From: a virus | DNA: 21,723 bases | Direction: 5' to 3' (one strand) | IMG/VR virus record: IMGVR_UViG_3300006928_000113 | Coordinates: 1-21,723 of that record | Notes under the pieces: model-generated | What the model was told of the DNA's origin: nothing | Databases searched by the model: none | Seen by the model: only the letters and a program-made list of their open reading frames with translations | Position numbers and translations under genes: made by a program | Shown here: piece by piece, positions 1 through 10,573 of the stretch | How the letters are laid out: every line of letters starts with the position of its first letter | Numbering within the stretch: the first letter of the stretch is position 1

Positions 1-708
1 CTTATTGATAATTTTAGATATTTTAGTTCAGCACTAACGGCTGCAAATATTCAAGACCTATACAATACAGAATATCAATGCTATATTACTAAAAATGCAT
101 CAGACCCTTTTGGATCAGGGGAAGTAGCTTTTTTTAATTTTAATAATAATTTAACTGATAGTACAGGGAGTTATGCCGCAAGTGCTTCGAGTGTATCTTA
201 TACAACGACAGATCCAGCTTTTGGAACTCACTCATTAAGTTTTAATGATAGTAGCAATTACATTGATTTTGGGACTAATGGTATTCCACTTCAAAGTGTT
301 AGTTATTGGGTAAAAATGAATGCAAATGGACACAATACTAGAGACACTTTAATTTATAGTGAAGAAACGAGTAGCACATATTTTGGTTGTACAAGATGGG
401 GTTCAAATGACGGGGCTACTGGGTTTTATGCTGGAGGTTCATATTGGAATTACTCTGGTACAGATTGGGCTTTAACGGGGAAATGGCATCATATTTATCA
501 AGATAAAGATTTGAATGTATATCTAAATGGTGTGCAAATTAATTCAGGGTCAGTAGGGGCAACTTCACAAAATATAAGGTATATAGGAAAATATCCTACC
601 GGTGCATCTGATTATTACATGAACGGATATATGGATCATCTTAGAGTTTTTAATACTAAACTAACAGGTGATCAAATTTGGCAATTATATTCTGAGAGAA
701 ATAATTAA
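1..708 (+). CDS. LamG/concanavalin-A-like lectin domain protein (5' end outside window)
   Basis: The frame is open from the first base of the window to the TAA at 706-708, so the start lies upstream and 235 residues are visible. The first residues (IDNFRYFSSALTAANIQDLY) look like the last strand and tail of one LamG-type jelly roll. The final residues (MDHLRVFNTKLTGDQIWQLY) repeat the same pattern, with a complete second domain between them (FNFNNNLTDSTG, then GKWHHIYQDKDLNVYLNGVQI). So at least two lectin-like domains lie in tandem. Such domains bind carbohydrate and in phages occur on fibres and other surface proteins. The position at the head of a fibre cassette fits a role in host attachment. 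The fold assignment is by pattern recognition and the sugar-binding role is inferred. It could also be a purely structural fibre segment. Confidence 0.8.
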   Translation, partial: LIDNFRYFSSALTAANIQDLYNTEYQCYITKNASDPFGSGEVAFFNFNNNLTDSTGSYAASASSVSYTTTDPAFGTHSLSFNDSSNYIDFGTNGIPLQSVSYWVKMNANGHNTRDTLIYSEETSSTYFGCTRWGSNDGATGFYAGGSYWNYSGTDWALTGKWHHIYQDKDLNVYLNGVQINSGSVGATSQNIRYIGKYPTGASDYYMNGYMDHLRVFNTKLTGDQIWQLYSERNN

Positions 709-720
709 ATAAAATAAATT

Positions 721-1137
721 ATGAGTCAAAAAAAGAAATTTAAAGATACCGGAGTTGGAAAATTTTTATTAAATAAAATTCCAAATGTCGTAGGAGCTAT
801 TGCCGGTGATACTCCCGTTGGTTCAGTTATTCAAGCAATAATTGGCGGAAGTGATATGAGCCAAGAAGACAAAGATATTGCTCTTGAAAAATTAAAAATA
901 GAAAGAGCAGAAATTGATGGAACAACAAAGCGTTGGGTAGCGGATGCAAAATCAGGGTCATGGCTTGCATCAAATGTCCGGCCACTTACACTAATTTTTT
1001 TAGTAATTTCTTATGTGGCAGGTTGGTATATGAGTTACCCGCTTGATTCTATTACTGGGCTTTTAACCATTGTAATTGGGGGATATTTTGGGTCTCGCGG
1101 AGCAGAAAAAATATTTGGAAATAAAATGCATAAATAA
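721..1137 (+). CDS. Holin, three-transmembrane type (Holin_3TMs-like)
   Basis: 138 residues. The C-terminal half carries the hallmark order of the 3-TM holin family: SGSWLASNVRPLT, a hydrophobic helix at about residues 89-105, a second at about 110-124, and the closing GGYFGSRGAEKI. A weaker hydrophobic stretch at residues 20-42 (PNVVGAIAG...VIQAIIGG) could be the first segment. The middle (48-70) is charged and helical. Holins collect in the inner membrane and open it at a set time so that lysis can proceed. The gene starts 12 bases after the lectin gene behind an A/T-only leader and ends with a one-base overlap with the next gene. No endolysin is seen nearby, so the partner enzyme must lie outside the window or differ from known types. 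Family recognition is good; timing and topology are inferred. Confidence 0.8.
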   Translation: MSQKKKFKDTGVGKFLLNKIPNVVGAIAGDTPVGSVIQAIIGGSDMSQEDKDIALEKLKIERAEIDGTTKRWVADAKSGSWLASNVRPLTLIFLVISYVAGWYMSYPLDSITGLLTIVIGGYFGSRGAEKIFGNKMHK

Positions 1138-1463
1138 TGGCAAAAATATCAACATATTCAAAAGATTCTTCCTTAACTGGAAATGATACTGTATTAGGTA
1201 CAGATGGAGATAATGAAAATACAACTGTTAATTTCTCTTTATCTACCTTAGCAGATTTTTTCAATGAAAATGATAACTACACCCATACACAAACTACAGC
1301 TGCTTCTACATGGTCTATTCCTCATAATCTTGGTAAATACCCTTCTCCAATAGTTATAGATTCCGGGGGAAATCAAGTAATAGGCTTAGTAAATTATACT
1401 AACACTAACGCATTAACAATAACATTTACGTCTTCCTTTTCAGGAACCGCGCATTTATCTTAA
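1137..1463 (+). CDS. Small beta-rich structural/fibre-tip protein
   Basis: 108 residues, beginning inside the stop codon of the holin gene (TAATG), which suggests translational coupling. The N-terminal 50 residues are polar and may be an attachment segment. The C-terminal half (from YTHTQTTAASTWSIPHNLG) is a short beta module with the pattern IPHNLGKYPSPIVIDSGGNQVIG, ending in TITFTSSFSGTAHLS. The same overall pattern (VTHSL...VIVQLYDA...LTVAFSTAP) ends the next gene, so the two C-termini look like related tip domains. Modules of this kind are common in fibre and decoration proteins of marine phages. No enzymatic motif is visible. The role as a fibre tip or small virion protein is inferred from composition and from position between other fibre genes. 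Confidence 0.7.
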   Translation: MAKISTYSKDSSLTGNDTVLGTDGDNENTTVNFSLSTLADFFNENDNYTHTQTTAASTWSIPHNLGKYPSPIVIDSGGNQVIGLVNYTNTNALTITFTSSFSGTAHLS

Positions 1464-1475
1464 AATAATAAAAAA

Positions 1476-2507
1476 ATGGCAATAAAATATTTAAATAACG
1501 TTGACCTTAATAAGAATCAATTACAGAATCCTGTAATTCATCCGTTAGGAACAGCCCCGGGTTCTCCTGCACAGGGTCAAATGTATTTTAACTCTACCGA
1601 TAAAAAATTATATTTTTATGACAATACATCTTGGATAGATGCATCTGGAGATATAAAAAGTATAACAAGTTCTACAACAGATACTTTAACTGTAGCAAAT
1701 GGTACTGGTCCAAATCCAGCATTAAGTATTGTAACAGCAACTGTAGCAAATGGGGGATCTGCTCTTGCAAATGGAGACCAAATATATGACTTTGTTGATG
1801 GCTTTGTTAACAATGCTAAATTACTAAGTTTATTAGCTGCTTTGGAATCTTCTAGTGGTGCAGCTGATGAAACAATATCTATTGGTACAGATTCAGGTGA
1901 TACAGTTAGTTTTGGAGGTAATGTAACAGTTACTGGAAATCTTACTATATCAGGAACTACAACAACTATAAATAGTAATACAGTAAATATTGGAGATAAT
2001 ATTTTAGTATTAAATTCAGATGCAACTGGTTCGCCATCAGCAGATGCTGGGATTGAGATTGAGAGGGGATCATCTACAAATACATTAATTAAATGGAATG
2101 AAAGTACAGATCGTTGGACATTCACAAATGATGGTTCTAATTATTTTAATATTCCTTTATCTACAGAATATGCATCAGGTGCTGCCGCTAGTACAAGTGC
2201 AGCGGGTCTTGTAGAATTAGCGACAAGTGCTGAAGCTTTAGCCGGTAGTGATACAGCTAGGGCAGTAACCCCTTCCGGGTTAGCCGCGAGGTCATTTGTT
2301 GGTACGATAGGTGATGGGTCTGCCACATCAATAACAGTTACACATAGTTTAAATTCAAGGGATGTCATTGTTCAGCTATATGATGCATCTTCTTACGAAA
2401 CAGTGTATGCAGACGTTACAAGAGCTACAGTAGATACTTTAACCGTAGCATTTTCTACAGCACCAGCAAGTAATGATATAAAAGTATTAGTTACTAAAAT
2501 AGATTAA
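1476..2507 (+). CDS. Modular tail fibre-like protein
   Basis: 343 residues behind an A-only leader, with no Shine-Dalgarno sequence. Modules in order: an N-terminal adaptor (MAIKYLNNVDLNKNQL, then a SPAQGQMYFNSTDKKLYFYD segment) related to that of the next gene; a beta repeat region at about 50-155; a segment at about 155-215 (GTTTTINSNTVNIGDNILVL, then ADAGIEIERGSSTN and RWTFTNDG) of a kind common in marine-phage fibres; the fibre motif AAGLVELATSAEALAG with RAVTPSGLAA at about 240-272; and a C-terminal knob at about 273-343 (GTIGDGSATSITVTHSLNSRD). The order adaptor, shaft, VELAT motif, knob is that of a receptor-binding fibre. Attachment to the virion through the shared N-terminus is inferred. 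The antisense open frames in this stretch are composition artefacts. Confidence 0.85.
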   Translation: MAIKYLNNVDLNKNQLQNPVIHPLGTAPGSPAQGQMYFNSTDKKLYFYDNTSWIDASGDIKSITSSTTDTLTVANGTGPNPALSIVTATVANGGSALANGDQIYDFVDGFVNNAKLLSLLAALESSSGAADETISIGTDSGDTVSFGGNVTVTGNLTISGTTTTINSNTVNIGDNILVLNSDATGSPSADAGIEIERGSSTNTLIKWNESTDRWTFTNDGSNYFNIPLSTEYASGAAASTSAAGLVELATSAEALAGSDTARAVTPSGLAARSFVGTIGDGSATSITVTHSLNSRDVIVQLYDASSYETVYADVTRATVDTLTVAFSTAPASNDIKVLVTKID

Positions 2508-2516
2508 TAATAAAAT

Positions 2517-4589
2517 ATGGCTATTAAACATAAACACTCCATCGATATTGATGGGGATTTAACATTTTCTGCCGGAAGGACCGTAACTATTCCTAATGGT
2601 ACAACAGCCCAAAGGCCTGGATCAGCTGCTGTTGGTATGTTCCGTTATAACACGACAACCAATGAGTTTGAAGGTTATACTGGTTCAAGCCCGGCGTGGG
2701 GAGCAATTGCTGGTAGTGGGGGTAGTAGCAGTGGAACTGTAACTGTAGAAAAAAATGTATACACTGGAGATGGATCAGACGTTACATTCAATACTTCAAC
2801 TGCAATTGTAAGTGAAAATAATGTACAAGTATATTTAGATGGCGTTTATCAATCTAAAGATAATTATACAACAAGTGGCAGTACTGTAACAATGTCCACT
2901 GCCCCTGCTAATAACGTGTCTGTAGAACTTATACATATAGTCGCTGTTAGTGGTATTATTGCAAGAGATAATTTTACTGGCAACGGTTCAACTACAGCAT
3001 ATGTACTTACTATGAGTATTTCAAATGAAAATGCTACGCAAGTATATTTAGATGGTGTATATCAAAGTAAAGATAGTTATTCAACTTCTGGTAGCACATT
3101 AACGTTTTCAACCGCCCCTCCGAACGGTACTGTTATAGAAGTTATTCATATGGAAGCTGTTGACACTTCATCACTAAATCAAAATAATTTTACAGGTGAT
3201 GGATCAACTACAGCATTTACATTATCTGCAAGTATTGATAATGAAACTAAAACATTTGTTTTTATACAAGGTGTTTATCAAGAAAAATCAACCTATAGTA
3301 TATCAGGTACAACTTTAACTTTTTCTACGGCCCCACAAAATGGTTATACCATTGAGGTTATGGCGTTTAGTACTATAACAGTTGGTAATGCTACAATTAG
3401 TGCAACTGATTGGCAATCAGCAATAAAAACATCAAACTTTACGGCGGTTGCAGGAAAGGGTTATTTTGTTAATACTACTTCAGGAGCGATAACAGTAACG
3501 CTACCAGCTGGAGTAGTTGGTGAAGAAGTAGTTATTCAAGACTATGCCGGAACTTTTGCTACTAATAAGCTTATATTTGCTTCTAATGGTTCTGAAAAAA
3601 TACAAGGGGATACTGATGATTACAAATGTGTTACTAACAATGCTACATGTACCTTAGTCTACCAAGATGCTACAAAAGGATGGACGGCTGATAATATTGA
3701 AATAGACGCAGTAGCAGTTAATTATGTAGTAATTGCTGGAGGCGGCGGTGGAGCTGGATCCGGAGGTAATGGTAATGGACAAGGTGGTGGTGGTGCCGGT
3801 GGATATCGCTCAGCTTATAATAGCGAAACCTCAGGTGGAGGAGGCTCATCTGAAACTGCTTTATCATTAAGTACAGCAACTAATTATACTGTAACAATAG
3901 GTGCTGGTGGAGCCGGCGGAGCTGCTTATAGTGGTGTTGGAGGTAATAATGGAAGTGTCGGTTCTAATTCTATATTTTCTTCAGTTACATCTGCAGGAGG
4001 TGGTTATGGAGGTAAATTAAGTGTTGCTGGTGGACCAGGTGGATCTGGTGGTGGTGGTGGTGCTTACTCAGGAGCTGGAGGAACTGGGACAAGTAATCAA
4101 GGTTATGCTGGAGGTACCGCAACAGCAAGTGGAAATTCATTATACTGCGGCGGCGGCGGTGGTGGTGCTGGAGAAGCTGGTAACACTGATGGCACTGGAT
4201 ACGGAGGGGATGGAGTTGCATCAACAATAACTGGATCATCTGTCACACGCGGCGGCGGTGGTGGTGGTGGAAGATATACTAATGCCTCTGGAACAACTGG
4301 AATTGCTGGTGATGGTGGTGGTGGTACTGGTGGAATTGGAGGAAGTGGTAATCAACCTGGTGGCGCTGGTACTGCTAATACTGGTGGCGGTGGTGGTGGT
4401 GCTGCCTGGCCAAGTTCTGGTACAGGATATGTTGGGGGTAATGGAGGTACTGGTGTTGTAATACTTAGATACCCAAATACTTCAACCTTAACTAATCCCG
4501 GTGGCGGATTAACACTCAGTACAGCAACAAATGGTTCAGATAAAGTTACTACTATTACAGCGGGAACAGGAAATATACAATTAAACTAA
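2517..4589 (+). CDS. Large fibre/adhesin with 72-residue repeats and polyglycine domain
   Basis: 690 residues. The N-terminus (MAIKHKHSIDIDGDLTF, then a GMFRYNTTTNEFEGY segment) parallels that of the preceding gene, so both may dock at the same virion site. Next come three copies of a beta repeat (pattern FTGDGSTTAF...QVYLDGVYQSK...LTFSTAP) starting at residues 80, 152 and 224, an exact 72-residue period. A shaft module at about 305-398 (GYFVNTTSGAITVTLPAG, KGWTADN) follows. From about residue 402 (YVVIAGGGGGAGSG) to about 650 the protein is dominated by glycine runs, ending in GTGVVILRYP. Glycine-rich domains of this type form packed polyglycine helices in some phage adhesins, with variable loops contacting the receptor. 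By analogy this is a prime host-range determinant. Other open frames here are shadows of the GGT/GGC repeats. Confidence 0.87.
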   Translation: MAIKHKHSIDIDGDLTFSAGRTVTIPNGTTAQRPGSAAVGMFRYNTTTNEFEGYTGSSPAWGAIAGSGGSSSGTVTVEKNVYTGDGSDVTFNTSTAIVSENNVQVYLDGVYQSKDNYTTSGSTVTMSTAPANNVSVELIHIVAVSGIIARDNFTGNGSTTAYVLTMSISNENATQVYLDGVYQSKDSYSTSGSTLTFSTAPPNGTVIEVIHMEAVDTSSLNQNNFTGDGSTTAFTLSASIDNETKTFVFIQGVYQEKSTYSISGTTLTFSTAPQNGYTIEVMAFSTITVGNATISATDWQSAIKTSNFTAVAGKGYFVNTTSGAITVTLPAGVVGEEVVIQDYAGTFATNKLIFASNGSEKIQGDTDDYKCVTNNATCTLVYQDATKGWTADNIEIDAVAVNYVVIAGGGGGAGSGGNGNGQGGGGAGGYRSAYNSETSGGGGSSETALSLSTATNYTVTIGAGGAGGAAYSGVGGNNGSVGSNSIFSSVTSAGGGYGGKLSVAGGPGGSGGGGGAYSGAGGTGTSNQGYAGGTATASGNSLYCGGGGGGAGEAGNTDGTGYGGDGVASTITGSSVTRGGGGGGGRYTNASGTTGIAGDGGGGTGGIGGSGNQPGGAGTANTGGGGGGAAWPSSGTGYVGGNGGTGVVILRYPNTSTLTNPGGGLTLSTATNGSDKVTTITAGTGNIQLN
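2754..3378 (+). repeat. Three tandem 72-codon (216-bp) repeats in the fibre gene
   Basis: Each unit begins with (N)(V/F)(Y/F)TG(D/N)GS, at 2754, 2970 and 3186, and contains a (V)Y(L)DGVYQSK-like strand, SGSTLTFSTAP and a closing IEV strand. The spacing is exactly 216 bases twice. Conservation is at protein level, with the DNA already diverged. The end of the third copy is approximate. Confidence 0.85.
3724..4470 (+). repeat. GGT/GGC-rich polyglycine-coding tract
   Basis: This stretch encodes the glycine-rich domain and is full of GGN runs. An 18-base stretch (GCGGCGGCGGTGGTGGTG) occurs perfectly at 4150-4167 and 4249-4266, 99 bases apart and in the same reading frame. Several shorter GGTGGTGGT runs lie around 3785, 4050 and 4390. 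The tract is locally far richer in GC than the rest of the cassette. Confidence 0.85.
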
Positions 4590-4597
4590 TAAATAAT

Positions 4598-4966
4598 ATG
4601 GCACATTACGCATTTTTAGATATGGCTAACGTAGTAACCGAAGTAATAGTAGGTAGAGACGAAGGTGATACAAATACAAACTGGGAATTAGAGTACCAAG
4701 ATGTAAGAAAACAAGTTTGTAAAAGAACTTCTTATAATACACAGGGGGGTGTACACTCAGAGGGTGGTACTCCTTTTAGAAAAAATTATGCAGGAATAGG
4801 TTTTACTTATGATTTCGGTAGAGATGCTTTTATACCACCTAAACCTTATCCTAGTTGGTTACTAGAGGAATCTTCATGTATGTGGAATCCTCCTATTGAG
4901 TATCCAGACGATGGGGAAAAATATGATTGGGATGAAGAAAACCAAGAGTGGGATAAAGTATCATAA
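4598..4966 (+). CDS. Conserved marine-phage protein of unknown function
   Basis: 122 residues, starting eight bases after the polyglycine fibre gene behind an A/T leader. I recognise the overall pattern as a small protein frequent in marine phages: an N-terminal MAHYAFLD...VVTEVIV strand pair, SYNTQGGVH, the motif TPFRKNYAGIGFTYD at about 58-72, FIPPKPYPSW at about 79-87, and an acidic tryptophan-containing tail (DWDEENQEW). The N-terminal part (about 20-45) seems longer or more variable than the rest. No catalytic motif is visible. Its place between fibre genes suggests a virion component or fibre-assembly helper, but I know of no experimental function. Confidence 0.75.
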   Translation: MAHYAFLDMANVVTEVIVGRDEGDTNTNWELEYQDVRKQVCKRTSYNTQGGVHSEGGTPFRKNYAGIGFTYDFGRDAFIPPKPYPSWLLEESSCMWNPPIEYPDDGEKYDWDEENQEWDKVS

Positions 4967-5021
4967 AAAATATTAAATGGCACAAACTAAACCTAAAAAA
5001 AATAATTAATAAAATAAAAAA

Positions 5022-5528
5022 ATGGCTTTAACTAAAGTAACAAGTAACGTACTAAACGATGATGCTGTAACAACTTCAAAAATAGTTGCGGATGCTGTAA
5101 CAGCTGCTAAATTAGCGGATGATGCGGTAGTAACTGCTAATATAGTTGATGTTAATGTAACTACAGCTAAACTAGCTAATGATAGTGTGACTAGTGCTAA
5201 AGCGGGTAATGAATTTACTACAGCAGCAGCTTTAACAATGGCTTCTCCTGTAGTGTTAGATTATACCGCAGCACAAGTATTTACATTAACGCCTAATGCT
5301 AATATGACTATAAATATTACTAACCCCGTAATTGGTGTTACTAAAGCAATAGTTATAACAGGCTCTGGTGGTAGCAGAACTTTAGCTTTTAATGTTGGAG
5401 GAGCTTCCGGTACATTTAATAAAATATCAGGAGATTACGATGATACTTCTTCTAAGAAAAACTTTGTACAAGTAACTTGCGTAGGCGCAACAGAATTTTG
5501 GTACACAATTTCACAAATAGCATCATAA
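5022..5528 (+). CDS. Decapeptide-repeat tail fibre-like protein
   Basis: 168 residues. After a short leader (MALTKVTSNVLND), residues 14-63 are five consecutive ten-residue repeats of the type DAVTTSKIVA / DAVTAAKLAD / DSVTSAKAGN. Such AVTTAKL repeats are a familiar shaft element in marine-phage fibres and are thought to form a trimeric rod. The remainder (about 64-168) is a beta-rich domain (VFTLTPNANMTINITNP, AIVITGSGGSRTLAFNVGG, EFWYTISQIAS) similar in style to shaft modules of the neighbouring fibre genes. The gene lies between other fibre genes and is separated by one base from the next start. The role in the adsorption apparatus is inferred. The repeat structure itself is directly visible. 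Confidence 0.82.
   Translation: MALTKVTSNVLNDDAVTTSKIVADAVTAAKLADDAVVTANIVDVNVTTAKLANDSVTSAKAGNEFTTAAALTMASPVVLDYTAAQVFTLTPNANMTINITNPVIGVTKAIVITGSGGSRTLAFNVGGASGTFNKISGDYDDTSSKKNFVQVTCVGATEFWYTISQIAS
5061..5210 (+). repeat. Five 30-base (10-codon) repeats
   Basis: In-frame units encode DAVTTSKIVA, DAVTAAKLAD, DAVVTANIVD, VNVTTAKLAN and DSVTSAKAGN. The DNA copies share words such as GATGCTGTAACA and ACAGCTAAA, but none are identical. Confidence 0.8.
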
Positions 5529-5529
5529 T

Positions 5530-6207
5530 ATGTTTGGACAATCATTACTTTCTGGGGCTTTTGGATCGGCGTTAGGGACGGAAGGTAATCCGGCCGCCTC
5601 AGGTATAGCTTTATATAATGCCGGGATAACAACATCGGGCAATTACTGGATAAACGGAGGTTCGGGCGCTTATGAGGCATATATAAAAATGGACGCTGGT
5701 GGGGGTTGGATAAATGTTAATCTTAGCAATTCGGTATATAGCACTCTTTTATCTGGTGGGCACGGTACTGGTGGTAGTAATATGGCAGCAGGTGGTGGCA
5801 GTGGCACAGCACTACTAAACGCTAATAATGGTACACATGCACAGGCAAATAGCTACGGATGTGGTGGAGATTCCCAAAAAAGTTATCTTGATTTAAATTC
5901 TACTTTTGTTAGTGATTTTAGTATAACGAAAGTTAGAATAGTAGTTTTATATGTTAGTGATAATGGTGGTGTTGTTTGTGGGCCTTATTGGACAAGCACC
6001 ACAAGTAGCAGAACTCAGTTACAAGGTACAGCAACTCAATTAAATGGGGCATGTAATAATTACCCTAATAGATACTCTGATCAGGTAGGCACTGGATTTA
6101 CTGTAGAATTCCACGGTACGCTAAATACTACTACAAGGCTATTCCAACAATTTACCGCATGTGCTGGTAGTTACACAAGTCAATTGAAAGAAGTTTACGT
6201 AAAATGA
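5530..6207 (+). CDS. Putative adhesin with fibrinogen/collagen C-propeptide-like motif
   Basis: 225 residues, starting one base after the previous stop. Residues about 22-62 (ASGIALYNAGITTSGNYWI, then AYIKMDAGGGW) match the pattern seen at the start of fibrinogen-related and fibrillar-collagen C-terminal-like domains: (S)GxYWI, a strand ending in a methionine, then GGGW. I have a clear memory of this pattern in marine-phage structural proteins. The rest is glycine-, serine- and asparagine-rich and beta-like. It carries four cysteines (111, 150, 175, 211) that could pair, unusual for the cassette. No signal peptide is seen. A receptor-binding role is inferred from the domain resemblance and the position. 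The stop overlaps the start of the oxygenase gene (ATGA). Confidence 0.72.
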   Translation: MFGQSLLSGAFGSALGTEGNPAASGIALYNAGITTSGNYWINGGSGAYEAYIKMDAGGGWINVNLSNSVYSTLLSGGHGTGGSNMAAGGGSGTALLNANNGTHAQANSYGCGGDSQKSYLDLNSTFVSDFSITKVRIVVLYVSDNGGVVCGPYWTSTTSSRTQLQGTATQLNGACNNYPNRYSDQVGTGFTVEFHGTLNTTTRLFQQFTACAGSYTSQLKEVYVK

Positions 6208-6785
6208 TAAAAGAACACAATATAGCAGGAAATAAAATATTTACTTTAGACAATAAAGATAATGTATTAATAGAAAAATTGTTACAAAATAATTATAGTG
6301 TGCATGATTACTATATGGACATATATAATTCTAATAATTTTAATTCTTTTTATACACCCATTGAAATGGATCCTAAAAGTAAAGGGCCTGGGTATCAAAA
6401 TGATTTAAGAAACAGAGGGCTACATCTTGAATGGGAAGAATATATTTGTACTCCTTTCAATGAGCACATTAATAAAGAGGGGATAGAGGGAAAAGACTTA
6501 TTTCTTTTTGAATCTTGGTATCTTTACCAGCCGAATGAAGACTGGATTGATAATCCTCCTCATCAGCATCAAACTGCTGATTATGTAGCAGTGACTTATT
6601 TAGAATTATCAGAAGGTGATCATATAATATTTTATGATACTGAGAATAACCCTGAAAGTTATTATCCAAAGTTAGGAGAAACTGTATTTTTTGGAGGTGA
6701 TATTATGCATAAACCTGGAGAATCTTCAGGCGAAAAAAGAGTTTCATTAAATGGTAATTTAACTTACCTAGAGCGAAAAACGTAA
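6204..6785 (+). CDS. Putative 2-oxoglutarate/Fe(II)-dependent oxygenase
   Basis: 193 residues. The C-terminal half has the layout of a double-stranded beta-helix oxygenase: PPHQHQTADYVAVTYL (H120 and H122, possible iron ligands) followed by GDHIIFYD; then PKLGETVFFGGDIMHKPGES with H169 as the likely distal ligand; then KRVSLNGNL, with R179 where the family usually binds the 2-oxoglutarate carboxylate. Enzymes of this class hydroxylate proteins or small molecules using iron, oxygen and 2-oxoglutarate. The N-terminal about 100 residues (WYLYQPNEDW and before) probably form the helical support. The start codon overlaps the preceding stop (ATGA), so it is probably translated together with the adhesin. 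It resembles the phage proteins grouped as putative 2OG-Fe(II) oxygenases. The substrate is unknown and the exact ligand set is uncertain. Confidence 0.72.
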   Translation: MIKEHNIAGNKIFTLDNKDNVLIEKLLQNNYSVHDYYMDIYNSNNFNSFYTPIEMDPKSKGPGYQNDLRNRGLHLEWEEYICTPFNEHINKEGIEGKDLFLFESWYLYQPNEDWIDNPPHQHQTADYVAVTYLELSEGDHIIFYDTENNPESYYPKLGETVFFGGDIMHKPGESSGEKRVSLNGNLTYLERKT

Positions 6786-6788
6786 AAA

Positions 6789-6950
6789 ATGAAAAACCAT
6801 AAAGGACTAGGAGATACAGTAGCAGCACTTACAGGATTAGTTGGTATAAAAAAAACAGAAGGTTGTGGTTGTCAAAAAAGACAAGAATGGTTAAATAAAA
6901 AAATACCTTATAATACCAAAATAAATAACAGTAATAAAATTATATCCTAA
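6789..6950 (+). CDS. Small conserved phage protein with CGC motif
   Basis: 53 residues, starting three bases after the oxygenase stop. The sequence opens with GLGDTVAALTGLVGIKK, then GCGCQKRQEWLNKKIPY and a polar tail. I recognise the arrangement GLGDT...GIKK...CGCxKRxExLNxxxPY as a recurrent tiny protein in phages and prophages of Bacteroidota and in marine phage contigs. The function is unknown to me. The two cysteines separated by one residue could bind a metal or form a redox pair, but with only two cysteines a dimer would be needed for a four-ligand site. The open frame fills the gap between neighbouring genes, which supports its being real. Confidence 0.72.
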   Translation: MKNHKGLGDTVAALTGLVGIKKTEGCGCQKRQEWLNKKIPYNTKINNSNKIIS

Positions 6951-6961
6951 TAATACAAGTT

Positions 6962-7048
6962 ATGGATTCAACAATTTTAAAAGGATTATTAATTGGAGGG
7001 ATATTTCTTATAATAATAATAATATATGTAATAAAAGAACTAAGGTAA
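6962..7048 (+). CDS. Predicted 28-residue single-pass membrane peptide
   Basis: A short frame encoding a single hydrophobic helix (about residues 6-24, rich in Ile, Leu and Gly) with a charged C-terminus (VIKELR). It starts 11 bases after the CGC-motif gene and fits the spacing of the block. A membrane role, possibly as a small lysis accessory or superinfection factor, would be pure inference. AT-rich DNA produces Ile/Leu-rich short frames by chance, so reality is uncertain. What favours it is the clean fit in an otherwise empty gap of about 140 bases, which also holds a 42-base leader of repeated TAAATAAA-like words. Confidence 0.4.
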   Translation: MDSTILKGLLIGGIFLIIIIIYVIKELR

Positions 7049-7090
7049 TTATATTCAATAAGTTAAATAAATTAAATAAAATTAAATAAA

Positions 7091-7333
7091 ATGAGCAAAA
7101 AAATAAATAAAGAAGAATTAAAAGAAGTACAAGATCTTAATTCTAAAATAAATTCAATAACAACAAGTATAGGTGTTCTTGAATATCAAAAAGCAATTTT
7201 AATGGGCCAATTAGTTGATGTAAATAACGAAATGGAGGTTAAAAAGAAACAACTACAAAAAGAATATGGGGATGTTTCTATAGATATTAAAGATGGGTCT
7301 ATAAAAAATAGTAAAAATGAATCTAATACGTAA
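7091..7333 (+). CDS. Small coiled-coil protein, conserved in phages
   Basis: 80 residues, mostly one long amphipathic helix from about residue 6 to 60 (EELKEVQDLNSKINSI, then VLEYQKAILMGQLVDVNNEM), ending in a short strand (VSIDIKDGSI) and a polar tail. This shape, a coiled coil followed by YGxVSIxIxDG, is one I associate with small conserved proteins just upstream of the terminase genes in phages of Bacteroidota and marine phages. No function is established that I know of. It could be a packaging or assembly helper. The start follows a purely A/T leader. The 3' end overlaps the next gene by 17 bases in another frame. Confidence 0.75.
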   Translation: MSKKINKEELKEVQDLNSKINSITTSIGVLEYQKAILMGQLVDVNNEMEVKKKQLQKEYGDVSIDIKDGSIKNSKNESNT

Positions 7334-7535
7334 GATAAGCATTGGAAGAGATTATAAAAACGATGCAATGCATTATGCTGTAGGGCAAGAAGTTTTTGGG
7401 GGACATAAAATTTCTCAAATAATGGAAGATAGTGGAGAGTATAAAATATTTATTGAAAAAAATAATGAAATTCTTCCTTGGAAACATTTTAATAAAAACA
7501 TGGCAGTTGCAGTAGAATTTAATCTAGACTATTAA
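7317..7535 (+). CDS. Small conserved phage protein upstream of terminase
   Basis: 72 residues, overlapping the coiled-coil gene by 17 bases and the next gene by one base (TAATG). The sequence pattern KISIGRDYKNDAMHYAVGQ, then GGHKISQI, EYKIFIEKN, and PWKHFNKNMAVAVEFNLDY is a compact beta-rich fold that I recognise as a conserved small protein of Bacteroidota-type phages, without a known function. The first methionine is preferred because conserved residues start almost at once (KISIG). A later start would remove them. Overlaps on both sides point to coupled translation with its neighbours. Confidence 0.75.
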   Translation: MNLIRKISIGRDYKNDAMHYAVGQEVFGGHKISQIMEDSGEYKIFIEKNNEILPWKHFNKNMAVAVEFNLDY

Positions 7536-8134
7536 TGAAAAATATTCATTGTTATATTATAAAGCCAATTAATGGTAGATATAATAACAAGATTAAGATA
7601 CAAGACAAAGAATTAATATTAAATACATCAATAGAAGATCACAAATTTGTTAATAGATTTGGAGAGGTTATTGCAACCCCTATGATTGATAATATTAATA
7701 ATATAAATGTTGGAGACGAAGTAATTATTCATCATAATATTTTTAGGAGATATTATAATGTTAGGGGAGAGGAAAAAAATAGTAAGAGTTATTTTAAAGA
7801 AGATTTATACTTTTGCTATTATGATCAAATATTTTTATATAAGAATAAAAATGATTGGATGCCTACGGACGGATTTTGCTTTGTAAAACCAATAAAAAAT
7901 AAAAATAAGTACACTACAGATAAAGAAAAGCCTCTAATAGGCGTTTTAAAGTACTTAGGGGATGATTTAAGGAGCTTTGGACTTAAAGCTAATGATTTAA
8001 TAGGTTTTACTCCAAATAGTGAGTATGAGTTTGTTATTGGAGACCAAAGACTTTATAGAGTGCCTATAAATTCAATTTCAATTAAATATGAACATAAAAA
8101 AGATGAAGTCGAATATAATCCAAGCTGGGTATAA
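7535..8134 (+). CDS. Putative GroES/Cpn10-like protein with two similar halves
   Basis: 199 residues. Two successive segments look like Cpn10 beta-barrels. Segment one is about 37-103: FVNRFGEVIATPM, INVGDEVIIHHN, then DLYFCYYDQIFLYK. Segment two is about 108-186: MPTDGFCFVKPI, IGVLKYLG, LKANDLIGFTP, then RLYRVPINSISIKY. Both follow the order of GroES: a gene-product-value strand, a G-x-V strand, VGDxV, and a closing strand reading like a command to bind iron-free barrel edges. GroES co-chaperonins cap GroEL during folding, and some phages (T4 gp31) carry their own for capsid folding. The position before the head genes fits that job. The resemblance is by eye, the mobile loop is not obvious, and another small-barrel fold is possible. 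Confidence 0.55.
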   Translation: MKNIHCYIIKPINGRYNNKIKIQDKELILNTSIEDHKFVNRFGEVIATPMIDNINNINVGDEVIIHHNIFRRYYNVRGEEKNSKSYFKEDLYFCYYDQIFLYKNKNDWMPTDGFCFVKPIKNKNKYTTDKEKPLIGVLKYLGDDLRSFGLKANDLIGFTPNSEYEFVIGDQRLYRVPINSISIKYEHKKDEVEYNPSWV

Positions 8135-8363
8135 AGCAGTAGAGGAATTAATAAAAGTAGCAGAAGAAGAAATTATTGTTGAAGACAAAGATGATGAATT
8201 AGCTGCAGATAGATTAAAAAATGCTGCTGCTACAAAAAAATTAGCAATATTTGATGCATTTGAAATATTATCTCGTATTGAAAATGAAAAAAATTTGATG
8301 GAGGATAAGCCTGTAGAAAATAAGCAAGCTTTTAGTGGGTTTGCTGAAAAAAGATCTAAATAA
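8088..8363 (+). CDS. Small helical protein before TerL, candidate small terminase subunit
   Basis: 91 residues, overlapping the preceding gene by 47 bases and TerL by one base (TAATG). A second in-frame ATG at 8103 would give 86 residues and a 32-base overlap, and may be the true start because the recognisable sequence begins MKSNIIQAGYKAVEEL. The protein is largely helical: residues 6-30, then AADRLKNAAATKKLAIFDAFEILSRIE from about 39, and a polar tail. Small terminase subunits commonly lie directly before TerL and are helical oligomers that recognise the packaging site. Size and position fit, but I see no helix-turn-helix I can defend. I treat the role as a hypothesis. Confidence 0.7.
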   Translation: MNIKKMKSNIIQAGYKAVEELIKVAEEEIIVEDKDDELAADRLKNAAATKKLAIFDAFEILSRIENEKNLMEDKPVENKQAFSGFAEKRSK

Positions 8364-10573
8364 TGTACGAGCAAAATCTTGTAAAAACAATTACCCCAAT
8401 TAGACAAAATATTATAAAGAGGCTTAATAAACAAAAAAAATGGGAATATGGGTATAATAGAGAGCATGATATTATTGTTATTAGCAAAACTGGTCAAATT
8501 GGAGAAATAGTAGAAATTCAAAATTTACCAGTTGCACTTCCACTTGCCCCTAAAAATATAGTTAATACAAATAATAAATGGGTACCAAAAGAACACCCAA
8601 AAGAATTAGATAGAATACGAACTATTTTTGATTGGGAAGGTTATCCGGAAACTTTTAAAAATAAATGGTATGATTATATTAATGATGAGTTTAAAAAACG
8701 TGAAGAAGGTTTTTGGTTTTATAATAAAGGCGTTCCTACTTATATCACTGGTTCTCACTATATGTACTTGCAGTGGACCAAGATTGATGTTGGGAAGCCA
8801 GACTTTCGAGAAGCAAACAGACTTTTCTTTATTTTTTGGGAAGCGTGTAAATCCGATATTAGGTGTTACGGAATGTGCTACCTTAAGAATCGTAGATCGG
8901 GATTTTCTTTCATGGCATCATCAGAACTGGTACACCAGGCCACTATATCCTCTGATTCACGATATGGAATATTATCTAAAACTGGAGCTGATGCGAAGAA
9001 AATGTTTACTGACAAAGTGGTACCAATATCAGTTAACTATCCCTTCTTTTTCAAACCGATCCAGGACGGTATGGACCGCCCCAAGACGGAACTCGCGTAT
9101 AGAGTCCCTGCCTCGAAACTTACCAGAAAGAAATTGGAAACTAGTACAGCCCTTGAAAAGGAACTCCAGGGGTTGGATACAACCATCGATTGGAAGAACA
9201 CCGGGGACAACTCCTACGATGGGGAGAAGTTACAACTCCTTGCCCACGACGAATCCGGCAAATGGGAGAGGCCCGACAACATCCTCAACAACTGGCGGGT
9301 TACGAAAACGACGTTAAGATTAGGAAGAAAAATAATTGGAAAGTGTATGATGGGGTCTACTTCTAATGCACTTGATAAAGGAGGCGATAATTTTAAAAAA
9401 CTATATAATGATTCAGACGTCACAAAAAGAAATCGTAATGGACAAACTAGCACGGGACTATATAGTTTGTTCGTACCTATGGAATGGAATTACGAAGGAT
9501 ACATTGATTCTTATGGACACCCTGTCTTTAATACGCCGGAAAAACCGACGCTTGGAAACGATGAAGAATTTATTGACACCGGGGTTATAGAGTTTTGGGA
9601 AAATGAAGTTGAGGGATTAAAACACGATTCTGATGGTTTAAATGAATATTATAGACAATTCCCAAGAACAGAAGAGCACGCATTTAGGGATGAGGCTAAT
9701 AATAGCATATTCAATTTAACAAAAATATATGAACAAATAGATTGGAATGAAGATCTTATTAGAAAAGGAATAATAACAAAAGGTTCTTTTGTTTGGGAGA
9801 ATGGAATAAAAGACACAAGGGTTATTTTTCATCCATCTCAGAACGGTAGATTTTTAATTGCATGGACACCTGAATCTGCTTTACAAAATAATATTATAGT
9901 AAAAAATGGTATAAGGTATCCAGGTAATGAGCATATGGGTGCTTTTGGATGTGACTCATATGATATATCAGGTACTACTGACGGTATTGGCTCTAAAGGG
10001 GCTTTACACGGATTAACAAAATTCTCTATGGAGAATGTTCCACCAAATACATTCTTTTTAGAATATATAGCTAGACCACAAACAGCTGAAATATTTTTTG
10101 AAGATGTCTTAATGGCTTTAGCTTATTATGCAATGCCAATTTTAGCTGAGAATAATAAACCTAGATTATTATATTATTTAAAGAGGAGAGGGTATAGAGG
10201 GTTCTCAATGAATCGCCCTGATAAGTTAAGTAATAAATTATCTGTTACAGAAAAAGAAATTGGAGGAATACCAAATACATCAGAAGATGTAAAACAAGCC
10301 CACGCAGCTGCAATAGAGACATATATAGAAAAGCATGTTGGCCTACAAAATGATGGGGCTGGAAATATATATTTCAATAAAACACTTAATGATTGGGCAA
10401 GATTCGATATAAATAAAAGAACAAAATATGATGCTTCGATTAGTTCCGGTTTAGCCATTATGGCTTGCAATAGACATTTATATCACCCTAGACCAAAATA
10501 TGAAAAACCCACATTAGATCTTAAAATTTCAAAATTTAACAATAAAGGAGTGCATTCGCAAATAATTAGATAG
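8363..10573 (+). CDS. terL: Terminase large subunit (packaging ATPase-nuclease)
   Basis: 736 residues. The ATPase domain occupies about 80-440: a deviant Walker A at 175-182 (KNRRSGFS, lacking the usual GK[ST]), Walker B at 292-297 (LLAHDE, with the catalytic glutamate), and a coupling motif GSTSN at 331-335. The C-terminal nuclease is RNase H-like: CDSYDISGTTDG at about 530-541 offers the first acidic residues, the EYIARP strand near 567 follows, and D690 (KYDASISSGLAIM) is a likely third metal ligand. The enzyme cuts concatemeric DNA and drives it through the portal. Portal starts one base after the stop. Bases about 9045-9310 have a base composition and codon use unlike the rest of the gene, coding residues about 229-315 around Walker B. 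An alternative frame at 8628-9317 is judged a shadow. Confidence 0.93.
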   Translation: MYEQNLVKTITPIRQNIIKRLNKQKKWEYGYNREHDIIVISKTGQIGEIVEIQNLPVALPLAPKNIVNTNNKWVPKEHPKELDRIRTIFDWEGYPETFKNKWYDYINDEFKKREEGFWFYNKGVPTYITGSHYMYLQWTKIDVGKPDFREANRLFFIFWEACKSDIRCYGMCYLKNRRSGFSFMASSELVHQATISSDSRYGILSKTGADAKKMFTDKVVPISVNYPFFFKPIQDGMDRPKTELAYRVPASKLTRKKLETSTALEKELQGLDTTIDWKNTGDNSYDGEKLQLLAHDESGKWERPDNILNNWRVTKTTLRLGRKIIGKCMMGSTSNALDKGGDNFKKLYNDSDVTKRNRNGQTSTGLYSLFVPMEWNYEGYIDSYGHPVFNTPEKPTLGNDEEFIDTGVIEFWENEVEGLKHDSDGLNEYYRQFPRTEEHAFRDEANNSIFNLTKIYEQIDWNEDLIRKGIITKGSFVWENGIKDTRVIFHPSQNGRFLIAWTPESALQNNIIVKNGIRYPGNEHMGAFGCDSYDISGTTDGIGSKGALHGLTKFSMENVPPNTFFLEYIARPQTAEIFFEDVLMALAYYAMPILAENNKPRLLYYLKRRGYRGFSMNRPDKLSNKLSVTEKEIGGIPNTSEDVKQAHAAAIETYIEKHVGLQNDGAGNIYFNKTLNDWARFDINKRTKYDASISSGLAIMACNRHLYHPRPKYEKPTLDLKISKFNNKGVHSQIIR
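8760..9310 (+). other. GC- and codon-usage island inside terL
   Basis: My hand counts give 60, 43, 50 and 60% GC for the four 60-base lines 9061-9300 (128 of 240, about 53%). Ordinary lines of the same gene give 28% (8461-8520 and 9361-9420) and 27% (9601-9660). In codons 9062-9298, 54 of 79 end in G or C. A mixed shoulder (33-45%) runs from about 8760 to 9060, and the fall on the right near 9300-9310 is abrupt. The reading frame is intact. Confidence 0.85.

Follow-up and report, generated by a model that had tools for sequence, protein, structure and literature searches.

2-Oxoglutarate (2OG) oxygenases are common 'auxiliary metabolic' genes of marine phages. Those of cyanophages have been read as acting in nitrogen control and the drawdown of 2OG, or else in the repair of DNA (PMC3037559), and the metabolic reading was repeated for phage DSL-LC04 (PMC10611076). 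Phage 2OG oxygenases have also been treated as partner auxiliary metabolic genes with ferrochelatase (PMC9599517) and as seasonal auxiliary metabolic genes (PMC11561400). In the available parts of these four sources, the fibre neighbourhood of the 2OG oxygenases is not mentioned. Our literature search, which likewise covered partial texts, found no paper on oxygenase action upon phage fibres.

The window, that is, the whole stretch of DNA analysed here, is a virus record of 21,723 bases from a marine virus infecting bacteria, and its oxygenase-like protein can be compared with several known systems. The phrog_81 phage oxygenases (cyanophage and pelagiphage type) resemble it in the profile, the HxH...H...R motif, and the fold; however, no named relative is more than about 25% identical to the window protein, the gene of which lies in a fibre module of flavophage-like type. 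The PF13759 cassette oxygenases of freshwater phages (DSL-LC04 and L190) have the same motif, the same length, and a neighbourhood of a Gly_rich_2 fibre gene and a g122-family gene, whereas the window protein shows 24% identity to them, has no PF13759 score, and is not encoded directly beside g122. The best structural matches are 3bvc and 2rg4, uncharacterised proteins of marine alphaproteobacteria (Z about 15). The profile of our 43-row alignment of oxygenase relatives (A3) finds both of them (E 1.6e-25 and 2.5e-24, respectively), and they carry the same HxH...H...R motif; they are, however, bacterial and 15–16% identical to the window oxygenase. The lysyl hydroxylase domain of mimivirus L230 and the chlorella-virus vCPH are also similar in fold (Z 13.9 and 13.2, respectively), but L230 and the other collagen hydroxylases modify collagen, whereas the window is without a collagen-like repeat.

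Profile searches of the window ORFs indicated that positions 1–6785 constitute a host-recognition module, including a lectin-like protein (PF13385, E 1.9e-15), a holin, and several fibre proteins. The cassette in this module is entirely on the plus strand and has the following order: a Gly-rich fibre protein gene (2517–4589; PF21722 Gly_rich_2, E 1.2e-9, and the PF03906 T7 tail-fibre N-terminal domain), a g122-family gene (4598–4966; phrog_7759, E 8.7e-39), a gene for a 168-aa tail-fibre protein with repeats (5022–5528; phrog_892 tail fibre protein, E 6.2e-16), a gene for a 225-aa adhesin-like protein, the N-terminal part of which is fibrinogen-like (5530–6207; phrog_1959, E 1.6e-8), and the gene for the 193-aa 2OG-Fe(II)-oxygenase-like protein (6204–6785; phrog_81, E 2.6e-9). 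A gap of 8 bases separates the Gly-rich gene from g122. The Gly-rich fibre gene is the usual upstream partner of g122, and the g122 family is a recurrent neighbour of 2OG oxygenases elsewhere. Downstream of the oxygenase gene, small genes are followed by the terminase and portal genes. Among the named phage records (87 records in all), the terminase is closest to that of a spring-water contig (62.7%), and the next closest ones belong to podoviruses that infect Flavobacterium (45.8% for the phages listed), Cellulophaga, Tenacibaculum, and Maribacter. Because these terminase relatives are flavobacterial podoviruses, the window virus is likely to have a Bacteroidota host. The gene starts in the window are A/T-rich and without clear Shine-Dalgarno motifs, a feature that fits such a host.

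The phrog_81 (2OG-Fe(II) oxygenase) profile covers residues 16–187 of the window oxygenase. PF13640 (2OG-FeII_Oxy_3) scored 19.1 bits, under its gathering cut-off of 27, and PF13759 (2OG-FeII_Oxy_5), which the relative L190 scores at E 3.8e-22, was absent from the matches at E up to 10. The sole match in the NCBIfam search was FlmC, at a sub-threshold score, and a PDB search with the window oxygenase as a single sequence found no sequence relative. The 2OG oxygenase fold anticipated by an earlier, sequence-only reading was borne out by the AlphaFold model built from A3 (mean pLDDT 79.5; residues 44–60 poor): by PDB comparison, it is a double-stranded beta-helix, the fold of the superfamily. 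The top match was 2rg4 (Z 15.4, rmsd 2.9, 165 residues aligned), followed by 3bvc (Z 15.2), the L230 lysyl hydroxylase, a Pseudomonas prolyl hydroxylase (Z 13.4), and vCPH; PHD2, OGFOD1, and AlkB (Z 12.5 for AlkB) were nearly as high. Since PHD2 and AlkB score close behind the hydroxylases, the fold cannot name the substrate. The tree gave no firm placement of the window oxygenase, the supports beside its own pair being 0.065 and 0.167. The assignment to a fibre context rests on the window's own neighbours.

The metal motif, H120-x-H122...H169...R179, is invariant in all 43 rows of A3, as are W105, N117, S181, and N185. On the plus strand, the H120-Q-H122 codons occupy 6561–6569, the H169 codon 6708–6710, and the R179 codon 6738–6740. 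The sequence-only reading had expected an H/D/H iron site. Instead, His occupies the position of the usual carboxylate ligand (Asp/Glu), so that HxH...H replaces the canonical HxD/E...H triad in 43 of 43 rows, and A3 contains no conserved Asp. We therefore file the protein not as a member with the canonical triad but only as a phrog_81-type protein. The expected Arg was indeed present: R179, located ten residues past H169, corresponds to the Arg/Lys of the superfamily and would bind the 2OG carboxylate. The sole acid just after HxH is residue 126 (codon 6579–6581), an Asp in the window that is replaced by Asn in the close relative L001 (1461–2042). Asp occurs there in 10 of the 43 rows, and its replacement by Asn in L001 argues against D126 as an iron ligand. 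The putative enzyme probably works like a canonical 2OG-Fe(II) oxygenase.

The oxygenase ORF starts in the ATGA of the adhesin-like gene stop, and these 4 nt (6204–6207, plus strand) are shared by the two genes, as had been noticed before. The overlap had been taken as a sign of functional partnership, a view that we do not retain: 6 of the 22 neighbouring gene pairs in the window overlap, including terL and its upstream gene, and, because overlaps are so common there, the overlap alone is weak evidence. The listed starts of two tiny ORFs (s1 and s2) are off by one base, but the count is the same with them corrected. The identity of the adhesin is moderately supported: its residues 6–63 match proteins encoded next to one another in the fibre cluster of Synechococcus phage S-SSM5, but the protein does not match PF00147 (Fibrinogen_C), for which two of the S-SSM5 relatives give weak scores (17.8 and 20.1) below the cut-off of 22. 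The proposed pairing of the adhesin and oxygenase genes is seen in 3 of 3 records (the window, L001, and L002), but these observations are not independent, because the three records represent one population. In unrelated phages, adhesin-related proteins and oxygenases share a cluster in S-SSM5 and, according to gene-cluster labels, in P-RSM4.

The oxygenase is a protein maintained under purifying selection: the comparison with L001 revealed 6 synonymous and 2 non-synonymous changes (pN/pS 0.077, Fisher P 7.5e-4), and the corresponding values for the fibrinogen-like gene were 20.3 and 7.7 (pN/pS 0.113, P 3.7e-8). The 36 differences from L001 lie in one tract over the two genes (5676–6579), and the flanks are free of substitutions, none being found at 4949–5675 (where one indel region exists at 4955–4996) or at 6580–8448. 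Thus, the adhesin and oxygenase genes were exchanged, or diverged, together. The oxygenase gene is accessory: the records of the 80 best terminase relatives (72–81% identical to the window terminase), many of them fragmentary, gave no phrog_81 match (0 of 80). The long locus closest to the window, L005, carries the Gly-rich and repeat fibre genes without an oxygenase. Only two other contigs in IMG/VR were found to encode the oxygenase, and in both of them the order relative to the fibrinogen-like gene is that of the window.

Outside the window, oxygenase genes occur near g122 in several arrangements. In phage DSL-LC04, the oxygenase gene has lectin and fibre genes around it and overlaps with a gene of the g122 family, while in the Manatee Spring podovirus MW202483, the gene immediately upstream of the oxygenase is g122. 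The S-SSM5 cluster begins with a tail fibre gene, three relatives of the window fibrinogen-like gene, a carbamoyltransferase gene, and a 2OG oxygenase gene, and continues with ferrochelatase, g122, a TPR protein, and a further pair of 2OG oxygenases; a few other genes are interspersed. When IMG/VR was scanned for g122, an oxygenase was found in 13 of 80 loci, and in 7 of these 13 the oxygenase stop overlaps the g122 start; most g122 loci (67 of 80) thus lack an oxygenase. The terminase-anchored loci used as the comparison set contained none (0 of 80). In the scan with the PF13759-type cassette subfamily, g122 abuts the oxygenase gene in 68 of 80 loci and is present within the locus in 77, but the former rate is inflated and gives no unbiased estimate, because the seeds were oxygenases chosen near g122; many of the contigs are also near-identical. 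After clustering, g122 abuts in 11 of 14 clusters at 90% identity and in 4 of 6 at 80%. The non-abutting cases mostly have an HNH gene or a second oxygenase-like gene in between, or reach the contig end. The gene preceding g122 is Gly-rich in 60 of 75 loci, and this is also the case in the window. With cyanophage-type seeds, all of the 80 oxygenase loci were without g122 nearby, and the S-CAM1 protein, which is closest to the window oxygenase among the named relatives, is encoded in a region of photosynthesis and nucleotide genes; therefore, the fold serves several contexts. Bacterial genomes scanned with the cassette subfamily yielded only 3 loci, all in metagenome-assembled alphaproteobacterial genomes.

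As an independent check, we used 21 named phages picked for g122 alone from 41 g122 records; duplicates, HTVC033P, 023Pt_psg01, and two large uncultured records were left out. Oxygenases were found in 12 of the 21 phages, and within 5 kb of g122 in 10 of them: DSL-LC04, MW202483, S-SSM5, P-RSM4, S-CAM8, S-MS29, S-RSM4, S-SM1, HTVC023P, and HTVC008M. In Bellamy and Melnitz-3, the oxygenases are away from g122. The 12 positive genomes contain 47 oxygenase genes, of which 21 are at most 5 kb away from g122. Random placement would put 3.3 of them there (P about 1e-5), but this null ignores the possibility that both genes prefer the structural half of the genome. With one genome per arrangement group (8 genomes), the number was 10 against 2.5 expected (P 7.5e-4), and in five large genomes it was 7 against 1.7 (P 0.006). 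A carbamoyltransferase gene is present in the same cluster in S-SSM5, P-RSM4, S-CAM8, and S-MS29.

A collagen-like fibre had been put forward as the substrate. No run of at least 6 G-X-Y triplets exists in any window frame of at least 60 residues, the window being a fragment, and among the g122 loci collagen repeats are not associated with the oxygenase (5 of 13 loci with it vs 19 of 67 without, P 0.52), so that the collagen substrate is unsupported. Collagen repeats were found in 24 of the g122 loci and 23 of the subfamily loci (80 loci in each set), as compared with 6 of 80 cyanophage-seeded oxygenase loci and none of 80 terminase loci; they belong to fibre clusters generally. The Gly-rich genes do not track the oxygenase among the g122 loci, either (9 of 13 with it and 58 of 67 without, P 0.21). 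As for g122 itself, its model (pLDDT 86) had no significant PDB match (Foldseek best E 2.1). Among the VIA rows only two reached a Z of at least 2, namely, a fibre of cyanophage Pam3 (Z 4.2, 55 residues) and the Mu tail fibre-chaperone complex (Z 2.1); this modelled similarity to fibres may be a hint at most. No Pfam family occurred in more than 1 of 43 g122 members (best E 0.021), and no PDB sequence relatives of g122 were found (best E 1.4).

We assign the oxygenase, a double-stranded beta-helix protein, to the host-recognition (fibre) module of the phage, and this position gives a concrete candidate substrate class, the phage's own fibre proteins. The tie between the enzyme and fibre proteins suggested by the sequence-only reading holds in part: the link of the oxygenase to fibre-module genes recurs across unrelated phages, but the overlap and the collagen idea do not serve as evidence for it. 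The order of the genes speaks for an enzyme that modifies proteins, namely those of the phage's own fibres or tip, and our tentative reading, to which we give somewhat less than an even chance, is that the protein is a putative fibre-module protein hydroxylase. The oxygenase would be made late, together with the fibre proteins, and, with the help of Fe(II), O2, and 2-oxoglutarate, would hydroxylate side chains in one of the fibre or tip proteins, with the Gly-rich fibre, g122, and the fibrinogen-like protein as candidates. The target residues may be Asn, Asp, Lys, or Pro, a collagen-type role not being favoured here, and the modification may tune the assembly, stability, or binding of the substrate protein. 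Against this reading, the window protein is not a close member of the PF13759 cassette subfamily, and its low identity to named relatives, its weak placement in the tree, the many g122 loci that lack an oxygenase, the cyanophage-seeded loci that lack g122, the S-CAM1 neighbourhood, and the His in place of the usual carboxylate ligand also count against it. A wider proposal, which is possible but rather doubtful, is that aquatic phages have a dedicated fibre-modification cassette, composed of a Gly-rich fibre, g122 as a tip or assembly partner, and at least one 2OG oxygenase (often with a ferrochelatase-like gene), that hydroxylates their own receptor-binding apparatus. If true, many genes listed as metabolic would be virion-maturation enzymes, enzymatic hydroxylation of tail fibres would add a new layer to the maturation of virions, and the ecological inferences drawn from phage 2OG oxygenase genes would need revision.

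Other explanations of the same data were weighed. Genes come and go in fibre modules, and the oxygenase may be a passenger in such a recombination hot spot, functionally unrelated to the fibres; the HNH genes inserted at the same place and the absence of the oxygenase from all 80 terminase relatives agree with this. It is nevertheless unlikely, because the oxygenase is under purifying selection and the two families meet repeatedly in unrelated phages, often with stop and start overlapping. The joint variation of the adhesin and oxygenase genes, as well as the carbamoyltransferase genes in the four clusters named above, would also fit the case in which a host surface molecule or small metabolite is hydroxylated, for example, for receptor change or superinfection exclusion, with the linkage to fibres reflecting co-selection for host type; we regard this as distinctly unlikely.

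The reading given in the four sources cited at the outset, namely, an auxiliary metabolic gene for 2-oxoglutarate drawdown or for reprogramming host nitrogen or iron metabolism, appears improbable for the window: the gene sits in a structural block, and the NtcA model was put forward for cyanobacteria, while the hosts of the window's terminase relatives are flavobacteria. The replacement of the usual Asp/Glu ligand by His in every A3 row could mean that the protein is a beta-helix protein binding metal via three histidines, no longer working as a 2OG oxygenase but serving as a chaperone or a structural component. The Arg that would be expected to hold 2OG is also invariant, however, and the solved proteins 3bvc and 2rg4 carry the same motif, which makes this very improbable. 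An AlkB-like role in nucleic-acid repair or modification is hardly to be expected: AlkB structures do match the model, and DNA repair is mentioned for cyanophage members in the available part of PMC3037559, but 2rg4, 3bvc, and the lysyl hydroxylase are better matches, and the gene is positioned in a fibre module.

Several further features were seen in the cassette loci. By inspection of the sequences, HNH homing-type genes directly follow the oxygenase gene in L208 (4953–5420), L276, L278, L286, L311, L315, and L324, and separate it from g122 in those loci that have g122, so that this junction is a target of mobile elements. In most of the loci (L257–L335; L089, 3468–3752), an unnamed gene of about 75–100 aa, located just upstream, overlaps the oxygenase start; no Pfam family was found for the DSL-LC04 copy of this small gene. 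In L272, L335, L210 (3262–3876), and L241 (6912–7487), the oxygenase gene seems to have beside it another oxygenase-like gene from a different family, and L241 also carries three g122-family genes with fibre-like genes between them (3090–6884). Next to g122 and the oxygenases, cyanophages and pelagiphages repeatedly carry a gene annotated as ferrochelatase (L176, L342, L344, L345, and L350). Finally, genes annotated as 'leprecan', the name of a prolyl-3-hydroxylase, occur in the same fibre-side cluster of P-RSM4 (L342, 6784–7305) and S-SM1 (L348, 6817–7341).
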